A stretch of DNA of 35,842 nucleotides from NCBI GenBank assembly GCA_002709705.1, contig PAQE01000029.1, positions 36,360 through 72,201 of the forward strand. The letters run 5' to 3'. A program made the position numbers and the translations under genes. Every line of letters starts with the position of its first letter. Position 1 is the stretch's first letter. This DNA comes from Methanobacteriota archaeon (GTDB taxonomy: Archaea > Thermoplasmatota > Poseidoniia > Poseidoniales > Poseidoniaceae). The notes below the pieces were generated by a model. The model did no database searches. It was not told the origin of the DNA and saw only the letters and a list, made by a program, of their open reading frames with translations. Positions 9,326-21,772 of this stretch are shown here, piece after piece.

Positions 9326-9919
9326 ATGTCGGTTCCTCAGCAACTACGCAACGACCCACGATGGGCTCGCCTTGTGGATTTAGTCAGAGAGTTAGCATTT
9401 CTCGACGGCGGCAGTGATGAAGCATTCACTTTAGCCAGCGGTAGAACTTCACGTTGGTTTTTCGATATGAAGCCCGTAATGATGCATCCTGAAGCAGGGC
9501 GCCTTGTGGGTCAGTTGATGAATGCACGGTGCGATGAAATCGGAGCCGATTTCGTCGGAGGATTGGAACTAGGGGCTGTTCCATTGGCTGCACTGGTAGT
9601 TGCTACCGATTTTACATCAGATAGACTGGGTTTCATGGTTCGAAAGCAAGCCAAAGGACGTGGCGGTAGAAAGACAAACAACCCACCAGGAATCGAAGGG
9701 GCATCGATTTCAGAAGGCGGTAAAGTGATTATTTTAGAGGACGTTACCACTACTGGAGGTTCTGCAATCCAAGCAGTCAAGAGAATAGAGGAAGAGACAA
9801 CCTGTGAAGTCGTAGCAGTAATCAGTATTCTGGACAGGCAAGAAGGTGGAAAAGAAGCATTTGAAGACGCTGGAATCCAATTCGAGAGCCTATTGGTTCG
9901 CTCCGATATATCAGGGTGA
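9326..9919 (+). CDS. pyrE: Orotate phosphoribosyltransferase
   Basis: The enzyme joins orotate to PRPP, giving orotidine 5'-phosphate in pyrimidine synthesis. The PRPP-binding motif VIILEDVTTTGGS is at 134-146, with the flexible catalytic loop before it (VRKQAKGRGGRK, about 105-116). The early FTLASGRTSRWFFD segment (34-47) matches the OPRT substrate loop (usual F-x-L-x-S-G-x-x-S). At 197 aa it is a normal single-domain type I PRTase, not fused to OMP decarboxylase. ATG 9326 is the first start after the divergent DP2 gene. The gene overlaps the downstream methyltransferase by four bases (GTGA), so the two are coupled. Confidence 0.93.
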   Translation: MSVPQQLRNDPRWARLVDLVRELAFLDGGSDEAFTLASGRTSRWFFDMKPVMMHPEAGRLVGQLMNARCDEIGADFVGGLELGAVPLAALVVATDFTSDRLGFMVRKQAKGRGGRKTNNPPGIEGASISEGGKVIILEDVTTTGGSAIQAVKRIEEETTCEVVAVISILDRQEGGKEAFEDAGIQFESLLVRSDISG

Positions 9920-11145
9920 ATAATTTGGATTTGAATCCTAGTGACGCTGACCTTGACGGCCCTACAGCAAACGATTCTACTGCTCCGGAAGGTTTGGTTT
10001 TTCATTATGCAGATGAGGCCAAACCCCTGGCAACTCCATGGCAGGTTGCAGTCGAGAGAGCTAAGATGATTAGGAAATGCAATTTACCCAGTGGTGCTAT
10101 TTTGGATCCCGCCTGTGGAAGTGGGATTCAGTTAGCAGCCTATTGTGCCATGCTAAACCGTGAAGGCTACGGTATTGAAATGGATAAATCTACAGCAATG
10201 GCTGCAAATTCAAATCTCAAAAGAGTGGCCGATTTTGGATTTGGACAATCGTTGTTATCCTCGACTATCAGAATAGGTGATGGAACAATCGGTGAATCCA
10301 AGCAAAAGTTTGCCATGTTACATCTGGACCCCGCAAGGCCGAGGAATTCTCGTACTCATGGGCTTGATGAAATGGCACCTAAACTGCCTGAAATTTTTGA
10401 AGCTTGGAAAGATAAATTGAATCATGGTGATAGAGGGCCAGCAATTTTGTTAGATTTATCACCTCGATTGGGTGATAGTCAACGCATTGAAGTTGAAGAA
10501 ATAGTCGAAACATTCTGGCCTAATATTGGGAAAACATGGGTGTGGACTAGCCGAGGGAGAGGCCGAGTCGACAGGTTATCATTGTGGGTAGGGCAGTTAT
10601 CCACTCCAAATATATCTCGCAGATATGTTCGTATTCCGCCAGACATCAAAGACAAACCACTGGTCATAGAAGGCGATTTTCAAGAAATATCAAGCCACAG
10701 AAAACCCCCGAGAAAAGGAGAACATGTTAGCATATTGGATGCAGCATTAGTGGAATCAGGCCTTGCGTTAAATTTTCTGAGAGATTTAATCCCTGGACAA
10801 GAGATTTCTTGGAGTATTGTCGAAGGACGCAGGCCACAAATTCATCATCCAGAGCCAATTAATTTTGAGAATAAGCAAGAGAGGATGCTCATTCAGGCCA
10901 CAGGGCGAATTGTGAAATTAGTTCATTCCGATTTGTCTATTGATACAATCTCGCGCCTTGTGGACGCATCTAGAGAGTATGGATTTGGAAAATTGACCCT
11001 ACGGGTCGCACTAGAACCGCAATTACAACCAAGACTTCAAGGAAGCCTAGACAGACAACTTTCTTCCAAGGGGGGCGTGCATGTTGGATTTGTTGCGAAA
11101 CAACCCCACGATTCTATGCTACTTTTGTGCCTTGAAACACAATAG
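9916..11145 (+). CDS. SAM-dependent methyltransferase with THUMP-like C-terminal domain
   Basis: A Rossmann-fold class I methyltransferase domain is clear: motif I ILDPACGSG at 62-70, the acidic end of strand 2 (GIEMD, 86-90) and motif IV HLDPARPR at 136-143. The DPAR motif IV resembles the 'THUMP-like domain' methyltransferases rather than N6-adenine (NPPY) enzymes, and is related to the DPPR motif of RNA m5U/m5C-type enzymes. The C-terminal 200 residues would be the THUMP-like/RNA-binding part. An RNA substrate is inferred; the target is unknown. The GTG start at 9916 overlaps the pyrE stop. The next gene, rps13, begins 144 bp later with its own leader. Confidence 0.75.
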   Translation: MNNLDLNPSDADLDGPTANDSTAPEGLVFHYADEAKPLATPWQVAVERAKMIRKCNLPSGAILDPACGSGIQLAAYCAMLNREGYGIEMDKSTAMAANSNLKRVADFGFGQSLLSSTIRIGDGTIGESKQKFAMLHLDPARPRNSRTHGLDEMAPKLPEIFEAWKDKLNHGDRGPAILLDLSPRLGDSQRIEVEEIVETFWPNIGKTWVWTSRGRGRVDRLSLWVGQLSTPNISRRYVRIPPDIKDKPLVIEGDFQEISSHRKPPRKGEHVSILDAALVESGLALNFLRDLIPGQEISWSIVEGRRPQIHHPEPINFENKQERMLIQATGRIVKLVHSDLSIDTISRLVDASREYGFGKLTLRVALEPQLQPRLQGSLDRQLSSKGGVHVGFVAKQPHDSMLLLCLETQ

Positions 11146-13795: not shown

Positions 13796-14737
13796 ATGTC
13801 GTATAGCGTAAGCACGATGAGTGAAGTCACTGTTCAAGTCGGAGGCCACGTGACTCTCCTTTTTTCAGTTCACTCCAAATCTCTACTTGCTAGAAATCAA
13901 GGCTCCAAAGGAGCTGGATTCTGTCTTGAGGACGGCGTTTTATCGACGGTGAAGATTCTGAATAAAGGCCCGGATAAGATTACAGTAACTTCAATGGATG
14001 GCAGTCTGTTCGAAAAGGGGGAACAATTGTACCTTGAGATGTTGAACTCATTTAGGGAGGTATTCAAGATCGAATCAGCAGTAAGCATTGATGTTCAATT
14101 AGAGTTGCCAGTTTCACAAGGCTTTGGAATGTCTGCAGCTGGATTACTAGCGACCAGCCTTGCTCTTGGCGAATTGTTTGACCGCGGAGATGAGGGCCAG
14201 TTAGCAAGATTGGCTCACAGAATTGAAAGAAAGTTTTCTGGAGGCCTTGGAGATATTCTTGGCCTTTGGGCAGGAGGGTGCGAACTGCGAGTTAATCCTG
14301 GTAGTCCTCCATCTCCTGGTAAGGCATACGGATTTGATGTTGGTTGCCCTGCAATTTTAGTTTGGGACCCCGAAGGAGAAAAGCACACCTCGGATTATAT
14401 TGATGACCCTGATTGGAAGATGAAGATAACAAAAGCAGGCGAAGCAGCAGTTGCGAGGTTAGAGAGACTTGATTGGAATCTCGGTGTTTGGGACAAACTA
14501 CTCGAAGAGGCAGACCGTTTTGCATTAGAATCTGGATTGCTTGATGAAAGAGCTAGAGCTAATTTGCTCAACGCAGTTGTCGAACACTCTGATGAGACGA
14601 TGAGTTGTCATTTGTGTATGCTTGGAACTTCTCTGATTGTAGTTCCAAGGAATTTGCAATTGGATTTCGATACTAGTGAATTAGCACAGAAACTAAGGGC
14701 GCTTGGCCTAGGTGTGAGAGAAACTATTCTTCAGTAA
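13796..14737 (+). CDS. Pantoate kinase (archaeal GHMP type)
   Basis: This archaeal COG1829 enzyme phosphorylates pantoate with ATP; phosphopantothenate synthetase then adds beta-alanine, the archaeal route to coenzyme A. The GHMP ATP-binding loop LPVSQGFGMSAAGL is at 104-117, where the archaeal kinases have this S/T-Q-G-[FA]-G-x-S-[AG]-A pattern. The segment RKFSGGLGDILGLWAGG (145-161) and a C-terminal domain near 230-313 complete the fold. ATG 13796 is the earliest start; an in-frame ATG at 13817 is also possible. The 3' end overlaps the convergent TPD nuclease gene by 14 bases. It follows rpoD by 44 bp and may be co-transcribed. Confidence 0.87.
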   Translation: MSYSVSTMSEVTVQVGGHVTLLFSVHSKSLLARNQGSKGAGFCLEDGVLSTVKILNKGPDKITVTSMDGSLFEKGEQLYLEMLNSFREVFKIESAVSIDVQLELPVSQGFGMSAAGLLATSLALGELFDRGDEGQLARLAHRIERKFSGGLGDILGLWAGGCELRVNPGSPPSPGKAYGFDVGCPAILVWDPEGEKHTSDYIDDPDWKMKITKAGEAAVARLERLDWNLGVWDKLLEEADRFALESGLLDERARANLLNAVVEHSDETMSCHLCMLGTSLIVVPRNLQLDFDTSELAQKLRALGLGVRETILQ

Positions 14738-15812
14738 GCTGATTTAATGGCCCTAAATCAAGGGGAGCGCAGTCTAGTAAAACCGTACCAGGTATGTACA
14801 AATTTTCACAGAAGCCATGCCTGAATACCAAAGCCCCTTGGCCCCAAGTGTCAACATATCGGCCCGCCTGTTTCACAATTTTCTTTCTTTGGAAATTGAC
14901 ATCAGCACCATAGAAATGCTTAGCGTCTATCCATGCGACAGGCTCACCGTTAATTTCTACATGATCTAAGAATAGCAAATCTGGAGTATTTACAGGTCTT
15001 CCATGTTCGGCCATTTGTTCTTTGACCATCTCACTTTGCCTTCTCACTCTCACGCCTTGTTCTTCAAACCAATCGGCGAGTATATCTTCGAATATATCTG
15101 CCCTAGAATGAGTTTCAGATTGATCTACATTACTTACTCTGTCAGCAGCTTCTGCAGATTTGAATTCGTTCCTTTCTCTCTCTTTGAATTTCGAAGGTGC
15201 ACGCAATGTTTCTTTGATTCTCGACTTTGACCACCCCATTTCTTTGAGCACCACTCTAAATATATTCATTGGAGGGAAATCGAATTTCTTTGAAAGTTCA
15301 ACGATACTCATCCCTTCTCTGTATAATCTCATAATTGCTTTTCCTCTTGCCTGAAGTTGCCCATGAGAGTAAACAGTTTTTTGTTGCAACAACGCACTTC
15401 TCAGAGACAAAGCTTGGTCCAAAGTCATGTCCAAGTCGCCAACCATCTCTCCAATCTCTGCCACCCTTTCGTCTGAAAGCCATCCGAATTCACCCCTACG
15501 GACTACCTTTGAAGCAAGTACAGATTCAGTCTCTAAAGTTACAGGGTTGTTTTCCCATTTGAATGAGAAGCGTCTTGGCTCTTCAAAATCCTCAGGAATT
15601 GCAATAGGTAGTGGATTTTGTGCAAATCGTTCATTCGCAGCTTTTTTTGCAGCTGTTTCGTATTCTGCATGCCTTTCAATCAACAAATGTTTGGCAGTTC
15701 CACCGTGTTGTTTTGGTTTCTTAGGCCTCTTACCGCGACGGCTATTTTTCCTAGAACTGCCACCCGCCATGGAACCGTCTGGATGCCCCCGTTCCATAGA
15801 TAAACCGGTCAT
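14724..15812 (-). CDS. TPD-motif PD-(D/E)XK nuclease, CDIN1/C15orf41-like, with HTH
   Basis: The C-terminal 130 residues match the pattern of the TPD domain known from human CDIN1 (C15orf41): V-N-T-P-D-L-L-F at 274-281, a strand ending W-I-D-A-K-H at 294-299, then a Gln/Arg/Tyr helix and a hydrophobic strand with GALVFRHGF. D278, D296 and K298 fit the catalytic P-D...(D/E)-x-K triad of this nuclease fold, and E242 in the preceding helix is a likely metal ligand. A helix-turn-helix lies at about 157-193 (REGMSIVELSKKF). The first 45 residues are basic and disordered. DNA cleavage is inferred from the fold. Its start overlaps the stop of the SRPBCC-like gene by four bases; its end overlaps pantoate kinase. 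Confidence 0.75.
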   Translation of the reverse strand: MTGLSMERGHPDGSMAGGSSRKNSRRGKRPKKPKQHGGTAKHLLIERHAEYETAAKKAANERFAQNPLPIAIPEDFEEPRRFSFKWENNPVTLETESVLASKVVRRGEFGWLSDERVAEIGEMVGDLDMTLDQALSLRSALLQQKTVYSHGQLQARGKAIMRLYREGMSIVELSKKFDFPPMNIFRVVLKEMGWSKSRIKETLRAPSKFKERERNEFKSAEAADRVSNVDQSETHSRADIFEDILADWFEEQGVRVRRQSEMVKEQMAEHGRPVNTPDLLFLDHVEINGEPVAWIDAKHFYGADVNFQRKKIVKQAGRYVDTWGQGALVFRHGFCENLYIPGTVLLDCAPLDLGPLNQLTEE

Positions 15813-16282
15813 TCTATGTTAGATAAATCTGAGATGAATTGCTCAGCTTGTTTCTTCATAAACGCATTAATCTGTTTAGAGAATACTGACAGAATTATTG
15901 ATACTTCGCAACTAGCGTGTACTTCAATGCCCCCGTCATCCTGATAGAGGAATGTAATGGAAATTTGCAGATTATTCAATCCCTTAGCAATCGGGCGCTC
16001 ATTCCTGCTTTGTCCCTCTCCCAATAATTCGATTTCACAGAAATCTTCTCCTTCACGAATTGATTTAACCAACCATTTTGTTTCGATTAAGCTGCCTTTG
16101 ATTACTTGGAAAATAGCGATGTGATCCCCTTCATCCATAGATTCAGGTTTGGTTGCTAACATACTCTTAGCACTACTATTCCAGTCCGGCCATTTACTGG
16201 GATTTCTAAATGCAGCCAGTCCCTTTTTGACTTGTTCCGGGGCCATCTCTTCTCTTGCAGTATGTGAGAAAACTCTGCCCAT
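15809..16282 (-). CDS. SRPBCC (START-like) family protein, putative
   Basis: This 157-residue soluble protein has the profile of a START/polyketide-cyclase fold: an N-terminal helix, a segment with P-S-K-W-P-D-W and M-L (about 28-40), alternating beta strands (DHIAIFQVIKG, TKWLVKSIREG, DFCEIELLGEG, LQISITFLYQD, IEVHASCEVSI) and a long C-terminal helix (SKQINAFMKKQAEQFISDL). The assignment rests on that secondary structure, not on a catalytic motif, and the ligand is unknown. The downstream TPD nuclease overlaps its stop by four bases, so the two are very likely translated from one mRNA. It is divergent from the beta-propeller/TSP3 gene across about 80 bp. Confidence 0.6.
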   Translation of the reverse strand: MGRVFSHTAREEMAPEQVKKGLAAFRNPSKWPDWNSSAKSMLATKPESMDEGDHIAIFQVIKGSLIETKWLVKSIREGEDFCEIELLGEGQSRNERPIAKGLNNLQISITFLYQDDGGIEVHASCEVSIILSVFSKQINAFMKKQAEQFISDLSNIE

Positions 16283-16363
16283 GTTTATTCCAGGTTGTGA
16301 TACTGCATTGATGTTGTGGACAGTTATGGCATCAATTCAAGTGAGAGAAGCCGATGGGGGTAT

Positions 16364-19060
16364 ATGCGACGACTGCTGGCATTAGCCGCTGTTTTGATTA
16401 TGGTACTTCCACTCATTTCTGTAGCGGAGGAAAGTCAAGGGCCCTTGGGGTGGGCTGTTTCAGGAGGAGGATTTGATGATGAAATCCTTGCAGGACATGT
16501 GGTTTTAGATGATGGCCAAATCGTAGTAGCAGGCTCTTTTACTTCAGCGGTACTGTTTGACGACATCGGCTTAGGGGCCGTAGGAATGTCTGGAGACGTT
16601 GACATGTATGTTGCAGTAATGAATGCAACTGGAAATTGGACCTCAGCATTCAATTTCGGCAGCATAGGTGCAGACGGAATTGACGCAATCGCTCTCCATA
16701 CATCTGGAGACTTAATCTTAGTCGGTCACTTTTGTCTGGGCACAGCTGGCGAGGCTTGTGGAGTGAACATGTCGTCTTTTACGCTGAACAAATCTCAAGA
16801 TAATCAAGAAGGAGATGCTTTTGTAGGCCGATTTGCTCTTTCTGGAAATGCACTAACTCCAATTTGGGTTAGAACTATTTCGAATCAAGACGATCTTTCT
16901 GGATTTGATGTAGAAGTTGGTCCTAATGGGGGGATATCAGTCGGGATTTTCCACAAGGGTTTCTTATCGGTAGAGGGGGAGTTTTTCCCTGGAGCAGAAG
17001 GAACTAGCATTGCTTTACTTCATTATGACGAAAATGGTCAACTCTTGTGGACGAATGGAATTACTAGCCAAGAAGGTATTGAAGCGTTCGGAGGCATGTG
17101 TTATTCCTCTGATGGATTCCTTCATGTTGTTGGAACATATGTTGGTTCAGTCATGTTCGTAGAGCGAACAGACTCAGAAGGTGAAGCAGATATGTTCGTA
17201 GCACAATTGGACGGCAATGGTAATTTCACATGGACATCATTCGCTGGAGGCACTGGTGAGGATTGGGTTAATGATTGCGCAGTGGATAGTACAGGGACAA
17301 TTCACATCGTAGGACAATTGGAAGGAACTGCGAGTTTTGGTATCATAAATGCTACATCGAATGGTTGGAGAGACATGTTCCATGCAAGTATCAATTCGAA
17401 TGGAATTTGGAATCATGTAAACAACGCTGGCGGTGGAGGTTGGGAATTAATTGAAACATTAATTATCGATTCCAAAGACAATATTCTCGTCACTGGAACA
17501 TACACTTCAACCTTTACTTTAGGCTTAGACCAACTAACCGACAAAGATTCAAATGGCGAAAAGAGAGATGTGTTTGTTGCGCAAATTGACCCTTCCAATG
17601 AATGGGTTTGGGCAGTTTCAGCAGGTGGTTCTGGTGATGATGTAGCTCGGTCGCTTCAATTCGGTCCAGATGAATCGCCAGTCATTGGAATGACTATACA
17701 AAACACTGCAATAATGGGTAATTTCAGCGTTTCAGCAGCAGGATATAGCGATGTTGCATTTTGGAGTTATGCTAGAGACCACGACTCCGATGGCCTCGCA
17801 GATGGCTCGGATAACTGTCCAAGAGTTGCAAACCCTGACCAAATAGATACTGATGGCGATTTGTACGGCGATGCGTGTGATGACGACGACGATGGCGATT
17901 CAATCGGAGATGATTGGGACGACTGCACACCAGGTGAGACCGGATGGATTTCATCTCCAATCACTGACCACGATAGCGATGGTTGTAGGGATGCTTCAGA
18001 AGACTTAGATGATGATGAAGATGGGATTTTCGATCACTATGATGAATGTCCCGAAGGTCCAGTTGGATGGACTTCTACGATTGAAAACGACGAAGACCAA
18101 AACGGCTGCGAAGATGTCGATAGCGATGGCGATGGTTATGTTGACCAGTTAGACAAGTGCCCTGAGATTTCTGATGACCAAGCCGACTTAGATGGTGACG
18201 GAATAGGAGATGCTTGTGAAGATGACACCGATGGCGATGGTATTCTCGATCAATACGATGAGTGTCCATTTGATTCATTCGATTGGGTTAGTGAGCACGA
18301 TATTGACCACGATCAAGATGGCTGTAGAGATGCAGACAGAGATGCAGACGATGACGGGGACAATGTACTGGATTTGTCAGACGATTGCCCTCGTGGTGAA
18401 ATAAATTGGAACGCATCATTCGACCATGATGGTGATGGTTGTCATGATGATTTTGAGGATACAGATGATGATTCCGATGGAGTAGCAGACTCCGAAGATC
18501 TTTGCCCACGTGGTTATGTCGGCCAGGCTGGTGCGGGAATGGACTTGGATCAAGACGGTTGTATCGATACAACTGAGGATAACGATGATGATAATGACGG
18601 AGTTGAAGATTCACGCGATGAGTGTCGATACACTCCAAAGGATATGGATGTAGATTCCGACGGTTGTTCTGGCGTACAATTAGATGATGATGGAGACGGA
18701 GTTCACAACCTAAACGACCTCTGCCCCTCAACTCCAATCGGCGAAATAGTGTCTTCTACCGGCTGTACAGTAGAAACCAATGAAGAAACCAAAACCAGTA
18801 GTGATGAAGAAGAATCATTCCCATTGATTACTATCCTATTCATAATCGCAGGAATATTAGTTGCAGTAGCAGCTTATGTTACTTTCAAGCCACAAGCGCC
18901 TCTACCGCCAAAGTCGATCCCGAAAGTTGGTGAAGAATCCAAATCATCTGTAGACAATAGAGGGGGCCAAGGGGATAGCGGAGCCACTTCTTCCAACATC
19001 AGTGATACCAGCCTCAATGTCGATGCTGGAGAGTCCAAGGTCACTGCAGATGAAGTCTGA
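16364..19060 (+). CDS. Large surface protein: beta-propeller, TSP3 calcium repeats, C-terminal membrane anchor
   Basis: The 898-residue product has a signal peptide (RRLLALAAVLIMVLPLISV, 2-20), an N-terminal repeated beta domain (about 25-465) whose blades share patterns such as GDxxVAGxF and DMFVAQLDxNGNFxW (a propeller of the SBBP/delta-60 kind), a TSP3-like array (about 473-800, HDSDGLADGSDNCPR onward) in which D-x-D-x-D-G motifs and spaced cysteines would bind calcium, a helix at 819-841 (LITILFIIAGILVAVAAYV) and a cytosolic tail of about 55 residues. It should face outward from the cell membrane. ATG 16364 is chosen over GTG 16316 because GGGGGT precedes it and it starts the signal peptide. 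The last 117 bases overlap the convergent leuS gene. Confidence 0.85.
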   Translation: MRRLLALAAVLIMVLPLISVAEESQGPLGWAVSGGGFDDEILAGHVVLDDGQIVVAGSFTSAVLFDDIGLGAVGMSGDVDMYVAVMNATGNWTSAFNFGSIGADGIDAIALHTSGDLILVGHFCLGTAGEACGVNMSSFTLNKSQDNQEGDAFVGRFALSGNALTPIWVRTISNQDDLSGFDVEVGPNGGISVGIFHKGFLSVEGEFFPGAEGTSIALLHYDENGQLLWTNGITSQEGIEAFGGMCYSSDGFLHVVGTYVGSVMFVERTDSEGEADMFVAQLDGNGNFTWTSFAGGTGEDWVNDCAVDSTGTIHIVGQLEGTASFGIINATSNGWRDMFHASINSNGIWNHVNNAGGGGWELIETLIIDSKDNILVTGTYTSTFTLGLDQLTDKDSNGEKRDVFVAQIDPSNEWVWAVSAGGSGDDVARSLQFGPDESPVIGMTIQNTAIMGNFSVSAAGYSDVAFWSYARDHDSDGLADGSDNCPRVANPDQIDTDGDLYGDACDDDDDGDSIGDDWDDCTPGETGWISSPITDHDSDGCRDASEDLDDDEDGIFDHYDECPEGPVGWTSTIENDEDQNGCEDVDSDGDGYVDQLDKCPEISDDQADLDGDGIGDACEDDTDGDGILDQYDECPFDSFDWVSEHDIDHDQDGCRDADRDADDDGDNVLDLSDDCPRGEINWNASFDHDGDGCHDDFEDTDDDSDGVADSEDLCPRGYVGQAGAGMDLDQDGCIDTTEDNDDDNDGVEDSRDECRYTPKDMDVDSDGCSGVQLDDDGDGVHNLNDLCPSTPIGEIVSSTGCTVETNEETKTSSDEEESFPLITILFIIAGILVAVAAYVTFKPQAPLPPKSIPKVGEESKSSVDNRGGQGDSGATSSNISDTSLNVDAGESKVTADEV
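17781..18740 (+). repeat. Degenerate Asp-rich TSP3 repeat array (DNA level)
   Basis: GAT/GAC-rich segments recur with variable spacing, encoding D-x-D-x-D-G calcium loops punctuated by D-[DE]-C-P. The units are divergent at the base level. The array is a protein-coding repeat, not a CRISPR or a transposon footprint. The same kind of array occurs in the protein at 25147-28590. Confidence 0.8.
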
Positions 19061-21760
19061 AGCTGCACTCAGAATTGCAGCCTCGTCCAATCTACCACTG
19101 ATCATCTGCTTTTCTTCATCAGACCATTTGAAGATTTGAGGGAGCATTCTCTTGCCCCAGAATCCCATTATTTCGCCTCGCATTTCACCTTGAGCGAATG
19201 GTAATCCTGACAAAACACCGGCAAATGTTTTGACGTTTTCACCTGAGTTGATGTGCTCAATCGCTGCTTGAGCAAGTTCGCGTTTCCAAGGCCTCGAAAT
19301 GTGCACAGTGGCATGGCTAGGATCGCCACCTATGTGCTTAACAGCAATTTTTGCAACCTTTCTTGCTTGCTCAAGGAATGTACGAAGATATGCTTCAGCC
19401 TCGAGTGCTGCCAATTCTTCATCGCTCAATTCCCCAGGTAAATCGAAGACTCTTCCAGCCATCAAATCGGTATTGCCTTGCATCTTCCACCAATCTTCAG
19501 CTAAGTGCGGTGTAGCAATAGAAATCATGTGTGTCCAAACATTGAGGATTTCTTTCCCGATTTCTGGATTTCCACCACCGCGTCGACGATACCAGTTTAA
19601 ATCCTTCACTAAATCAAAGTGGCTTGCATCCACTGCTCCACGCAGATCGTAATTATCCATAGCGTTCTGCCACTGTAGGCATCTTTGTTTGAGACGAGCC
19701 TGCATCCACAAATCGATTTTACTTGCATCACCATTCCAACCTAAGATGTTAGAAGGCATTCCATACAATTGAACCATTTGTCTATGATTAGCCTCAAGTG
19801 CAGAATCTGACCAATCCATTCCTGCAGTGGGATTTGCTGCAAATAGGATGAACAAGCGGACTGTGTCGGCTCCATATTTTTCAATCATTTCTTCAGGTGA
19901 AACGGTATTCCCGAGGCTCTTACTCATCTTTGCACTTCTCTCGCTCAATATCGAACTGCATTGTGGACATTTTTTGCCAGTGTGTTCAACAGACAATGTT
20001 ATTCCACAAGGTTCACACCATGGCGCTGCTTTGTTCACCATGCCTTGGCATAACAACTCTTCAAACGGCTCGTCGATATTGTGCAAGCCAATGTCACGCA
20101 ATGCCTTTGTCCAGAACCTTGCATAAATCAAGTGCATTTGAGCATGTTCTATACCTCCGCAGTAAAAATCAACATTCATCCAATGGTTGGCGATTTCAGG
20201 GTCGAAGCAATTGTCGGTCTGCATCGGGTCTGTGTATCTTAGGAAGTACCAAGAAGAGTCTACGAATGTATCCATTGTATCAGTCTCTCTTTTTGCAGGC
20301 TTTCCACATTTTGGACAGTTTACATTACAGAAAGACTCACTAGTTTCAAGTGGATTTCCTTTGCCATCAAAAACGACGTCTCTAGGTAATTCCACAGGCA
20401 ATTGGTCCTCGGGAACGGGAACTACTCCACATGTTTCACAATGAATAATTGGTATTGGAGTGCCCCAGTACCTCTGTCTGCTAATCAGCCATGGTCTTAT
20501 TTTCCAATTAATGGTGCCATTTCCAGCTCCTGTTTTTTCTAGCGCTTCACAAACAGCAGATTTGGCTTCTGCACCATATAGCCCATCGAACCCTTCGATT
20601 CCAGAATTTACCATCCACCCTAAATCACATTCAGCAAATTCTAATTCTGCATCACCTGAATCGCCTTCAGACATCACCAATACGCGTTTTATTGGAATAT
20701 CGTACTTCTTTGCAAATTCAAAGTCCCTTTCATCATGACCAGGGACTGCCATAACAGCGCCAGTTCCATATGATGCGATTACGAAATTACCGACCCAAAT
20801 AGGAAGTTTCTCACCGGTTAATGGATGGATAGCAAACGCTCCAGTAGGAACACCCTTTTTCTTACCCATATTTTTGATTCTATCAAACTCACTCATTGCG
20901 ATTATTTCGTCATGAAGAGCTCTCCAATCTTTTTCATATTCAGTCCCAGATACTAGTTTTTCAGCCAATTCATGTTCCGGGGCTAATGTAACGAACGTAA
21001 CTCCAAACAATGTATCTGGTCGTGTTGTGAATACACGAATATTTTCATCCATACCTTCTACTGCAAATTCGATTTCAGCACCTTCAGATCTACCTAACCA
21101 ATCTTGTTGCAGAGCCTTTACATTTTCTGGAAAACTAATCGTTTCCAAACCATCAAGCAACTCTTGCGCATATTTTGTAATGTCCAGGAACCATTGACTC
21201 ATTTCCTTTTGAATTACTGGTGCATTGCACCTCCAACATCTGCCTGCTTTTACTTGCTCATTCGCAAGAACAGTGCTGCATGGTTCACACCAATTTACTG
21301 GGGCGAACTCCTGGTAAGCCAGACCTCTTTCCAAGAATTTTAGGAAAAACCACTGGTTCCATCGATAGTATTGCGGGTCGTGGCTCTTGACTAAACGCCT
21401 CCAGTCGTATGAGAAACCCATGCGCTTGATTTGTTCTGTAATCGATTTCATGTTTCTTTCAGTAATGTCATGGGGATGTCCTCCTTCGGCAATAGCTGCA
21501 TTCTCAGCAGGCATCCCGAACGAATCGAATCCCATTGGATATAGGACATCGAATCCCATCAATCTCTTATATCGAGCAACTGCGTCTCCAATTGAGTAAT
21601 TTCTAACATGCCCCATATGCATTTTTCCAGATGGATATGGATACATTTCGAGGCAATAGAATACTGGATTTTCCTTGTTGTATTCCACATTGAAAATACC
21701 AGAGTCTTCCCAAGCCTTTTGCCAGGATAGTTCTGTATTTTGTGGAATGTAATCCGACAC
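18944..21760 (-). CDS. leuS: Leucyl-tRNA synthetase, bacterial type
   Basis: This class Ia synthetase charges tRNA-Leu and edits mischarged products. The HIGH motif appears as HMGH near 48-51 within YPYPSGKMHMGHVRNYS; KMSKS is near 611-615. The segment PWLISRQRYWGTPIPIIHCE and the sequence after KMSKS are bacterial in style, unlike the usual archaeal LeuRS. Just before KMSKS a Cys4 ribbon (WCEPCG...KKCPQC) stands where the leucine-specific domain inserts in many bacterial enzymes. The C-terminus (about 850-938) instead looks like an archaeal tail. GTG 21760, five bases after GAGGTG, is preferred over TTG 21763. The 3' end overlaps the convergent TSP3 gene by 117 bases. Confidence 0.95.
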   Translation of the reverse strand: MSDYIPQNTELSWQKAWEDSGIFNVEYNKENPVFYCLEMYPYPSGKMHMGHVRNYSIGDAVARYKRLMGFDVLYPMGFDSFGMPAENAAIAEGGHPHDITERNMKSITEQIKRMGFSYDWRRLVKSHDPQYYRWNQWFFLKFLERGLAYQEFAPVNWCEPCSTVLANEQVKAGRCWRCNAPVIQKEMSQWFLDITKYAQELLDGLETISFPENVKALQQDWLGRSEGAEIEFAVEGMDENIRVFTTRPDTLFGVTFVTLAPEHELAEKLVSGTEYEKDWRALHDEIIAMSEFDRIKNMGKKKGVPTGAFAIHPLTGEKLPIWVGNFVIASYGTGAVMAVPGHDERDFEFAKKYDIPIKRVLVMSEGDSGDAELEFAECDLGWMVNSGIEGFDGLYGAEAKSAVCEALEKTGAGNGTINWKIRPWLISRQRYWGTPIPIIHCETCGVVPVPEDQLPVELPRDVVFDGKGNPLETSESFCNVNCPKCGKPAKRETDTMDTFVDSSWYFLRYTDPMQTDNCFDPEIANHWMNVDFYCGGIEHAQMHLIYARFWTKALRDIGLHNIDEPFEELLCQGMVNKAAPWCEPCGITLSVEHTGKKCPQCSSILSERSAKMSKSLGNTVSPEEMIEKYGADTVRLFILFAANPTAGMDWSDSALEANHRQMVQLYGMPSNILGWNGDASKIDLWMQARLKQRCLQWQNAMDNYDLRGAVDASHFDLVKDLNWYRRRGGGNPEIGKEILNVWTHMISIATPHLAEDWWKMQGNTDLMAGRVFDLPGELSDEELAALEAEAYLRTFLEQARKVAKIAVKHIGGDPSHATVHISRPWKRELAQAAIEHINSGENVKTFAGVLSGLPFAQGEMRGEIMGFWGKRMLPQIFKWSDEEKQMISGRLDEAAILSAASDFICSDLGLSSIDIEAGITDVGRSGSAIPLAPSIVYR

Positions 21761-21772
21761 CAAAACACCTCT

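Follow-up and report, generated by a model that had tools for sequence, protein, structure and literature searches.

The window analysed here, a stretch of 35,842 nucleotides from the genome of an uncultured marine archaeon (Candidatus Poseidoniaceae, Marine Group II), carries a gene for a TPD-domain protein that lies between an upstream gene on the same strand and a convergent gene at its 3' end. The genes and the features of the encoded protein are as follows.

14724..15812, minus strand: TPD-domain (PF14811) protein of 362 amino acids, with an open reading frame at exactly these coordinates and a possible alternative start at Met15 (15770)
15678..15812, minus strand: basic, partly disordered N-terminus, residues 1-45, with 11 K/R against 2 D/E and a pLDDT below 50 at residues 1-30
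15240..15344, minus strand: helix-turn-helix-like segment, residues 157-191, seen as helices in the model and including P181, invariant in 68/68 homologues
14793..15179, minus strand: TPD / PD-(D/E)XK nuclease domain, residues 212-340, placed by the PF14811 alignment and by the core order in the models
15087..15089, minus strand: E242, glutamate of the active-site helix (AxxxE), E in 68/68
14979..14987, minus strand: T276-P277-D278 motif with the predicted catalytic Asp, 68/68
14919..14933, minus strand: W294-I-D-A-K298, the (D/E)xK motif, with W and K in 68/68
14856..14870, minus strand: Q315-x-x-x-Y319, a RecB-type fourth motif, with both residues in 68/68
15809..16282, minus strand: upstream gene of 157 amino acids, called SRPBCC-like in the sequence-only reading of this DNA, overlapped by 4 nt (ATGA) by the TPD open reading frame as called
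13796..14737, plus strand: convergent pantoate-kinase-like GHMP kinase, overlapping the 3' end of the TPD gene by 14 nt; NF040725 match of 83.9 bits, below the cut-off of that model

Family membership was computed directly: the protein matches PF14811 over residues 212-340 with 66.3 bits (E = 3.4e-18) against a curated cut-off of 27 bits, and all 55/55 sequences of an alignment of Poseidoniaceae homologues match this family as well. The closest named relatives are 87-91% identical and include a MAG labelled MGIIa-K1 (Marine Group II), and the source genome, which is 77% complete, holds a single TPD gene. The start of the gene is uncertain. Because the first Met of most relatives aligns at Met15 (15770) and not at 15812, translation may begin there; the upstream gene and TPD would then be separated by about 38 nt instead of overlapping.

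Conservation was assessed in two homologue alignments, a broad one of 26 sequences and a larger one of 68 archaeal sequences from many families. E242, T276, P277, D278, W294, K298, G302, Q315, Y319, G324, G326 and G333 are invariant in both, among homologues that share as little as 17-25% identity with the window protein, and position 296 is always acidic (D in 28 and E in 40 of the 68): Poseidoniales have Asp there, and almost all other sequences have Glu. The V-N-T-P-D and W-I-D-A-K motifs with D278, D296 and K298, the upstream acidic helix with E242 and the basic N-terminus, all proposed in the sequence-only reading, are present, and the helix-turn-helix it proposed is backed by model helices at 157-165, 170-177 and 181-191 together with the invariant P181. 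As seven residues are identical in 68/68 homologues spanning many families, the agreement in active-site motifs is not a matter of chance. GxxxE, D, (D/E)xK and QxxxY, in that order, is the motif arrangement of RecB-type nucleases, and all four elements occur in 41/41 non-Poseidoniales sequences.

The Poseidoniales proteins depart from this canonical archaeal form in several respects. Position 238, four residues before E242, is G in 41/41 non-Poseidoniales sequences and A in 19/19 Poseidoniales, so that AxxxE and WIDAK stand in place of GxxxE and WIESK; the Poseidoniales proteins also share an insert before TPD, a spacing between K298 and Q315 that is longer by one residue, and an N-terminal extension of about 100 residues with a basic tail that is absent in the non-Poseidoniales homologues. 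Their PF14811 scores of about 67-82 bits compare with 126-168 bits in other Thermoplasmatota, and in a tree they form one clade with a support of 1.0. Judged from these sequence traits, the Poseidoniales TPD proteins are a divergent subfamily. Family f3, which shares its class with Poseidoniales and is, by inference, probably Marine Group III, keeps the canonical form, and the variation therefore most likely arose within Poseidoniales.

The AlphaFold2 model of the full-length protein, built with 55 Poseidoniaceae sequences, has a pLDDT of 86 and a pTM of 0.81, and that of the isolated domain a pLDDT of 81. Both models present the core order helix-strand-strand-strand-helix-strand, which is the PD-(D/E)XK order, and this core carries the acidic residues and the lysine; in domain-model numbering, DSSP assigns helices at 28-47 and 101-119 and strands at 75-83, 86-94, 122-126 and 139-143. 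The N-terminal half is mostly helical and contains the helix-turn-helix-like segment. A Foldseek search of viral models matched the TPD protein A0A167RJG3 of Powai lake megavirus (E = 4.8e-13, probability 1.00) and the CDAN1-interacting nuclease 1 A0A2L2DJP4 of a mimivirus (E = 5.6e-9, probability 1.00). The predicted folds of these giant-virus proteins match over most of their length, although identity is only 18-21% and, at 209-270 amino acids, they are too short to include the whole N-terminal extension. A further unnamed viral protein in BFVD, A0A8F8SNR0 (E = 1.1e-25, 29% identity, TM 0.66/0.78), resembles the Poseidoniales TPD model more closely than do the CDIN1 proteins of giant viruses. 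Among solved structures, a PDB search with the TPD models gave no match at E <= 0.001, and phmmer and profile searches found none related by sequence. The weak, non-significant PDB matches are mostly PD-(D/E)XK enzymes, namely Bax1, RecB, Can2 and BbvCI for the full model and BsaWI, Hef, Vsr, XPF and BamHI for the domain model, with tRNA splicing endonuclease also among the latter.

The gene is a genuine but divergent relative of human CDIN1, as had been proposed from the letters, and the proposal was right in family, domain, active-site residues and helix-turn-helix, with the PF14811 match and the PD-(D/E)XK core both found. Human CDIN1 is essential and is mutated in congenital dyserythropoietic anaemia type I (CDA-I), to which C15orf41 was reportedly linked in an earlier report. 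To our knowledge, neither a substrate nor a nuclease activity of the human protein is known. By published description, human C15ORF41 has a predicted helix-turn-helix and PD-(D/E)XK domain with similarity to archaeal Holliday-junction resolvases (PMC7261414); on this account the Poseidoniaceae protein shares with CDIN1/C15orf41 the TPD domain, the helix-turn-helix-bearing N-terminal half and the PD-(D/E)XK active site. Orthologues in Euryarchaeota have been described, with a human-archaeal E value of 1e-34 (PMC7092493), and homologues in archaea and viruses have been mentioned (PMC6519365). Since archaeal homologues were published before, the Poseidoniaceae protein adds a divergent member to a family already known, and the suggestion that it could reveal the ancestral role holds in part: the archaeal homologues themselves are not new (PMC7092493; PMC6519365), but that role is constrained by the failure to detect histones in Thermoplasmatota that carry TPD. 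What our analysis adds is this histone absence and, as a suggestive pattern drawn from few independent lineages, the retention of TPD in all 14 tested genomes that lack matches to both Hjc and ERCC4.

Within the phylum Thermoplasmatota, TPD occurs in 160/293 genomes, with 41/43 in family f1, 39/39 in f2 and 5/6 in f3, and in 80/82 of the Poseidoniales genomes sampled; nearly all genomes with a match have a single copy. Giant viruses do carry members of the family, as the Foldseek matches indicate; at the sensitivities used, no relatives were found in plasmids, phages or IMG/VR viral contigs, and PADLOC returned no match for TPD. For these reasons a mobile or defence gene is unlikely, and such an origin was rejected.

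A search for the histone fold (PF00808) found it in 0/22 of the TPD-bearing Thermoplasmatota genomes tested, and the TPD family therefore needs no histones in these genomes; a link to histones was rejected on this basis. This sets these archaea apart from the CDIN1-Codanin-1-ASF1 assembly, which is a eukaryotic context and not a defining property of PF14811. Methanosarcina acetivorans has both TPD and a histone-fold protein. Full conservation of the nuclease residues in archaea without detectable histones suggests that the family first served to process DNA and not to handle histones.

The distribution of branched-DNA nucleases was tallied in genomes at least 90% complete, using PF01870 for Hjc and PF02732 for ERCC4/XPF/Hef. 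In families f3, f30, f37 and f38, all 15/15 tested genomes are TPD-positive and without an Hjc match, and ERCC4 is likewise absent from 14 of them, so that TPD is carried by 14/14 tested genomes lacking both; no genome tested for all three lacks Hjc, ERCC4 and TPD together. Hjc is found in 45/46 TPD-negative genomes and also in 57/74 TPD-positive ones. Among the control genomes, only that of Methanosarcina acetivorans has TPD over the cut-off, and it gives no Hjc match. The sample was enriched for Hjc-less families and the pattern amounts to about two independent losses in the phylum plus Methanosarcina, for which reason it is not statistically secure; it fits a role of TPD that overlaps with branched-DNA nucleases, and we regard it as a lead. 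A separate question raised by these four families (e.g., G062, G174, G177, G095), which have no detectable Hjc and nearly all of which are without ERCC4/XPF/Hef, is which enzyme resolves their recombination junctions.

TPD is nevertheless not a member of the families it resembles. Its predicted PD-(D/E)XK fold is also that of Hjc, and the ExK motifs of the two align weakly but in the correct register (E = 0.06-0.11); unlike Hjc, TPD gives no PF01870 match among the Pfam results for the window protein, and the two genes coexist in Poseidoniales. With RecB/Cas4-type nucleases it shares the motif order, but TPD has no helicase and no significant profile similarity to the Cas4-like family of the phylum. 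Membership in the Hjc, ERCC4 or Cas4-like families was rejected, as hhalign found no significant homology to any of the three (probabilities below 1%), and because this includes the Cas4-like profile we describe TPD as working like a RecB-type enzyme without filing it as one.

The gene neighbourhood is conserved only locally. The sequence-only reading had TPD coupled to an SRPBCC-like gene, a claim that fared poorly: the upstream gene is present at 65/91 Poseidoniaceae loci, at 0/9 loci of the sister Poseidoniales family and in no other lineage, its ATGA overlap with TPD recurs in 18/65 pairs when the longest open reading frame is used, none of 9/9 homologues has a Pfam match, and the NCBIfam match lies far below threshold (19.7 bits against a cut-off of 100). 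Synteny and the absence of family matches led us to reject this coupling as ancestral. The SRPBCC assignment itself is not supported. The pantoate-kinase-like gene adjoins TPD in 97/99 Poseidoniales loci; as the pair is convergent and confined to Poseidoniales, we read it as frozen gene order and rejected a functional link. Poseidoniales TPD often lies near a leucyl-tRNA synthetase gene, with an S13-S4-S11-rpoD cluster on the other side. Elsewhere the neighbours vary by clade, with a CoA-disulfide-reductase-like flavoprotein gene preceding TPD in family f17 and a Cas4-like gene following it in 10 non-Poseidoniales loci. No neighbour is common to TPD loci across the phylum, nor is there a conserved repair-gene neighbourhood, so the function cannot be read from the genes around TPD.

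Several genes around these loci merit mention in their own right. The Cas4-like PD-(D/E)XK protein, which has membrane-like hydrophobic segments, is encoded directly 3' of TPD on the same strand (L154-L157, L159, L160, L162, L164, L167 and L170; e.g., L159:8480-9469, TIGR00372 65.4 bits, cut-off 65). In the window, the leucyl-tRNA synthetase at 18944-21763 (minus strand) is of bacterial type (TIGR00396 leuS_bact, 893 bits, cut-off 548), scores 273.6 bits against the archaeal TIGR00395 (cut-off 648.5) and aligns with the archaeal model in its C-terminal part, and the Poseidoniales enzyme is possibly an inter-domain transfer or a hybrid. The gene at 16316-19060 (plus strand), whose 3' end overlaps this convergent synthetase gene by 117 nt, encodes a secreted or surface protein of 914 aa whose Asp-rich repeats resemble those of thrombospondin type 3. 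At 9916-11145 (plus strand) lies a 409-aa methyltransferase-like protein with only weak MTase matches, whose place between the pyrE and S13 genes is conserved in Poseidoniales.

The reading we prefer, and to which we give about an even chance, is that TPD is a chromosomal, conserved, single-copy housekeeping nuclease acting in DNA repair or recombination. Computation shows that it belongs to the family, has the invariant active-site residues and the core fold, is conserved on the chromosome and occurs in tested Thermoplasmatota without a detectable histone; its metal dependence, its DNA substrate, its branch specificity and its role in repair are what we infer. In this proposed mechanism the helical N-terminal half, with its helix-turn-helix and basic tail, would most likely bind DNA. 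In the C-terminal PD-(D/E)XK domain, E242, D278 and D296 would hold a divalent metal, K298 would serve phosphodiester hydrolysis, and Q315 and Y319 may place the strand or act as its gate, like their counterparts in RecB-type nucleases. The likely work of the enzyme would be to cleave damaged or branched DNA during repair and recombination linked to replication, overlapping with Hjc and XPF/Hef. Against this reading stand the negative nuclease assays of the human protein (PMC7261414), the small number of lineages behind the Hjc/ERCC4 pattern, the presence of Hjc in most TPD-bearing genomes, the negative profile comparisons and the absence of a conserved repair-gene neighbourhood.

Other explanations deserve weighing against this one. 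An RNA-processing nuclease engaged in tRNA, rRNA or mRNA turnover, with the helix-turn-helix-like helices binding RNA or a protein partner, is unlikely but worth keeping in mind, since PD-(D/E)XK-like folds include RNA enzymes, tRNA splicing endonuclease is among the weak domain matches, Poseidoniales TPD often sits beside the ribosomal protein and rpoD cluster, and the Codanin-1 scaffold is CNOT1-like, which has prompted an analogy with RNA decay (PMC11911400). However, that ribosomal neighbourhood is specific to Poseidoniales, the adjoining gene is convergent and hence not co-transcribed with TPD, the QxxxY motif is a signature common to RecB-like DNA nucleases (PMC4454674), and the human protein was inactive on RNA as well (PMC7261414). 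Somewhat less probable still is a catalytically silent factor that binds DNA or protein and uses the nuclease fold as a scaffold. Assays of human C15ORF41, by itself or together with a fragment of Codanin-1, detected no nuclease activity on a wide set of DNA and RNA substrates, both linear and branched (PMC7261414), and a 2026 paper still records no published activity for CDIN1 (PMC13370696), repeated failures that speak for such a factor; yet the complete PD-(D/E)XK set, including the acidic residue at 296, and QxxxY persist in 68/68 homologues down to 17-25% identity, a degree of conservation not easily reconciled with an inactive scaffold.

A narrower version of the preferred reading, in which TPD is a structure-specific resolvase, redundant with Hjc and able to take its place, seems to us doubtful. 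The Hjc-less genomes of f3, f30, f37 and f38 that keep TPD, the TPD-positive and Hjc-negative M. acetivorans and the near-universal Hjc of TPD-negative genomes all agree with it, but most TPD-positive genomes have Hjc too, profile similarity does not go beyond the weak ExK alignment, and the human complex left Holliday junctions uncut (PMC7261414). That TPD serves anti-viral defence is very improbable: the combination of helix-turn-helix and PD-(D/E)XK is common among restriction enzymes and a Cas4-like gene follows TPD in several non-Poseidoniales families, but vertical conservation, a fixed position and a near-universal single copy in Poseidoniales, together with the absence of plasmid copies and of a PADLOC match, largely refute it.

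Taken further, the preferred reading of a DNA repair nuclease leads to a more tentative proposal, which we think could be correct but would not expect to be: TPD would be an ancient archaeal branched-DNA nuclease able to stand in for Hjc and XPF/Hef, the animal CDIN1-Codanin-ASF1 system a later eukaryotic take-over, and the Poseidoniales form a separate subtype, set off by an N-terminal extension of its own that binds DNA. Our findings highlight that archaeal TPD has retained a complete active site in cells where no histones are detected, and the original activity of the family is therefore open to study without Codanin-1, ASF1 or eukaryotic chromatin. The TPD-positive genomes without Hjc and XPF/Hef are natural test places for this activity, and the genetically tractable archaeon Methanosarcina acetivorans carries a TPD gene.
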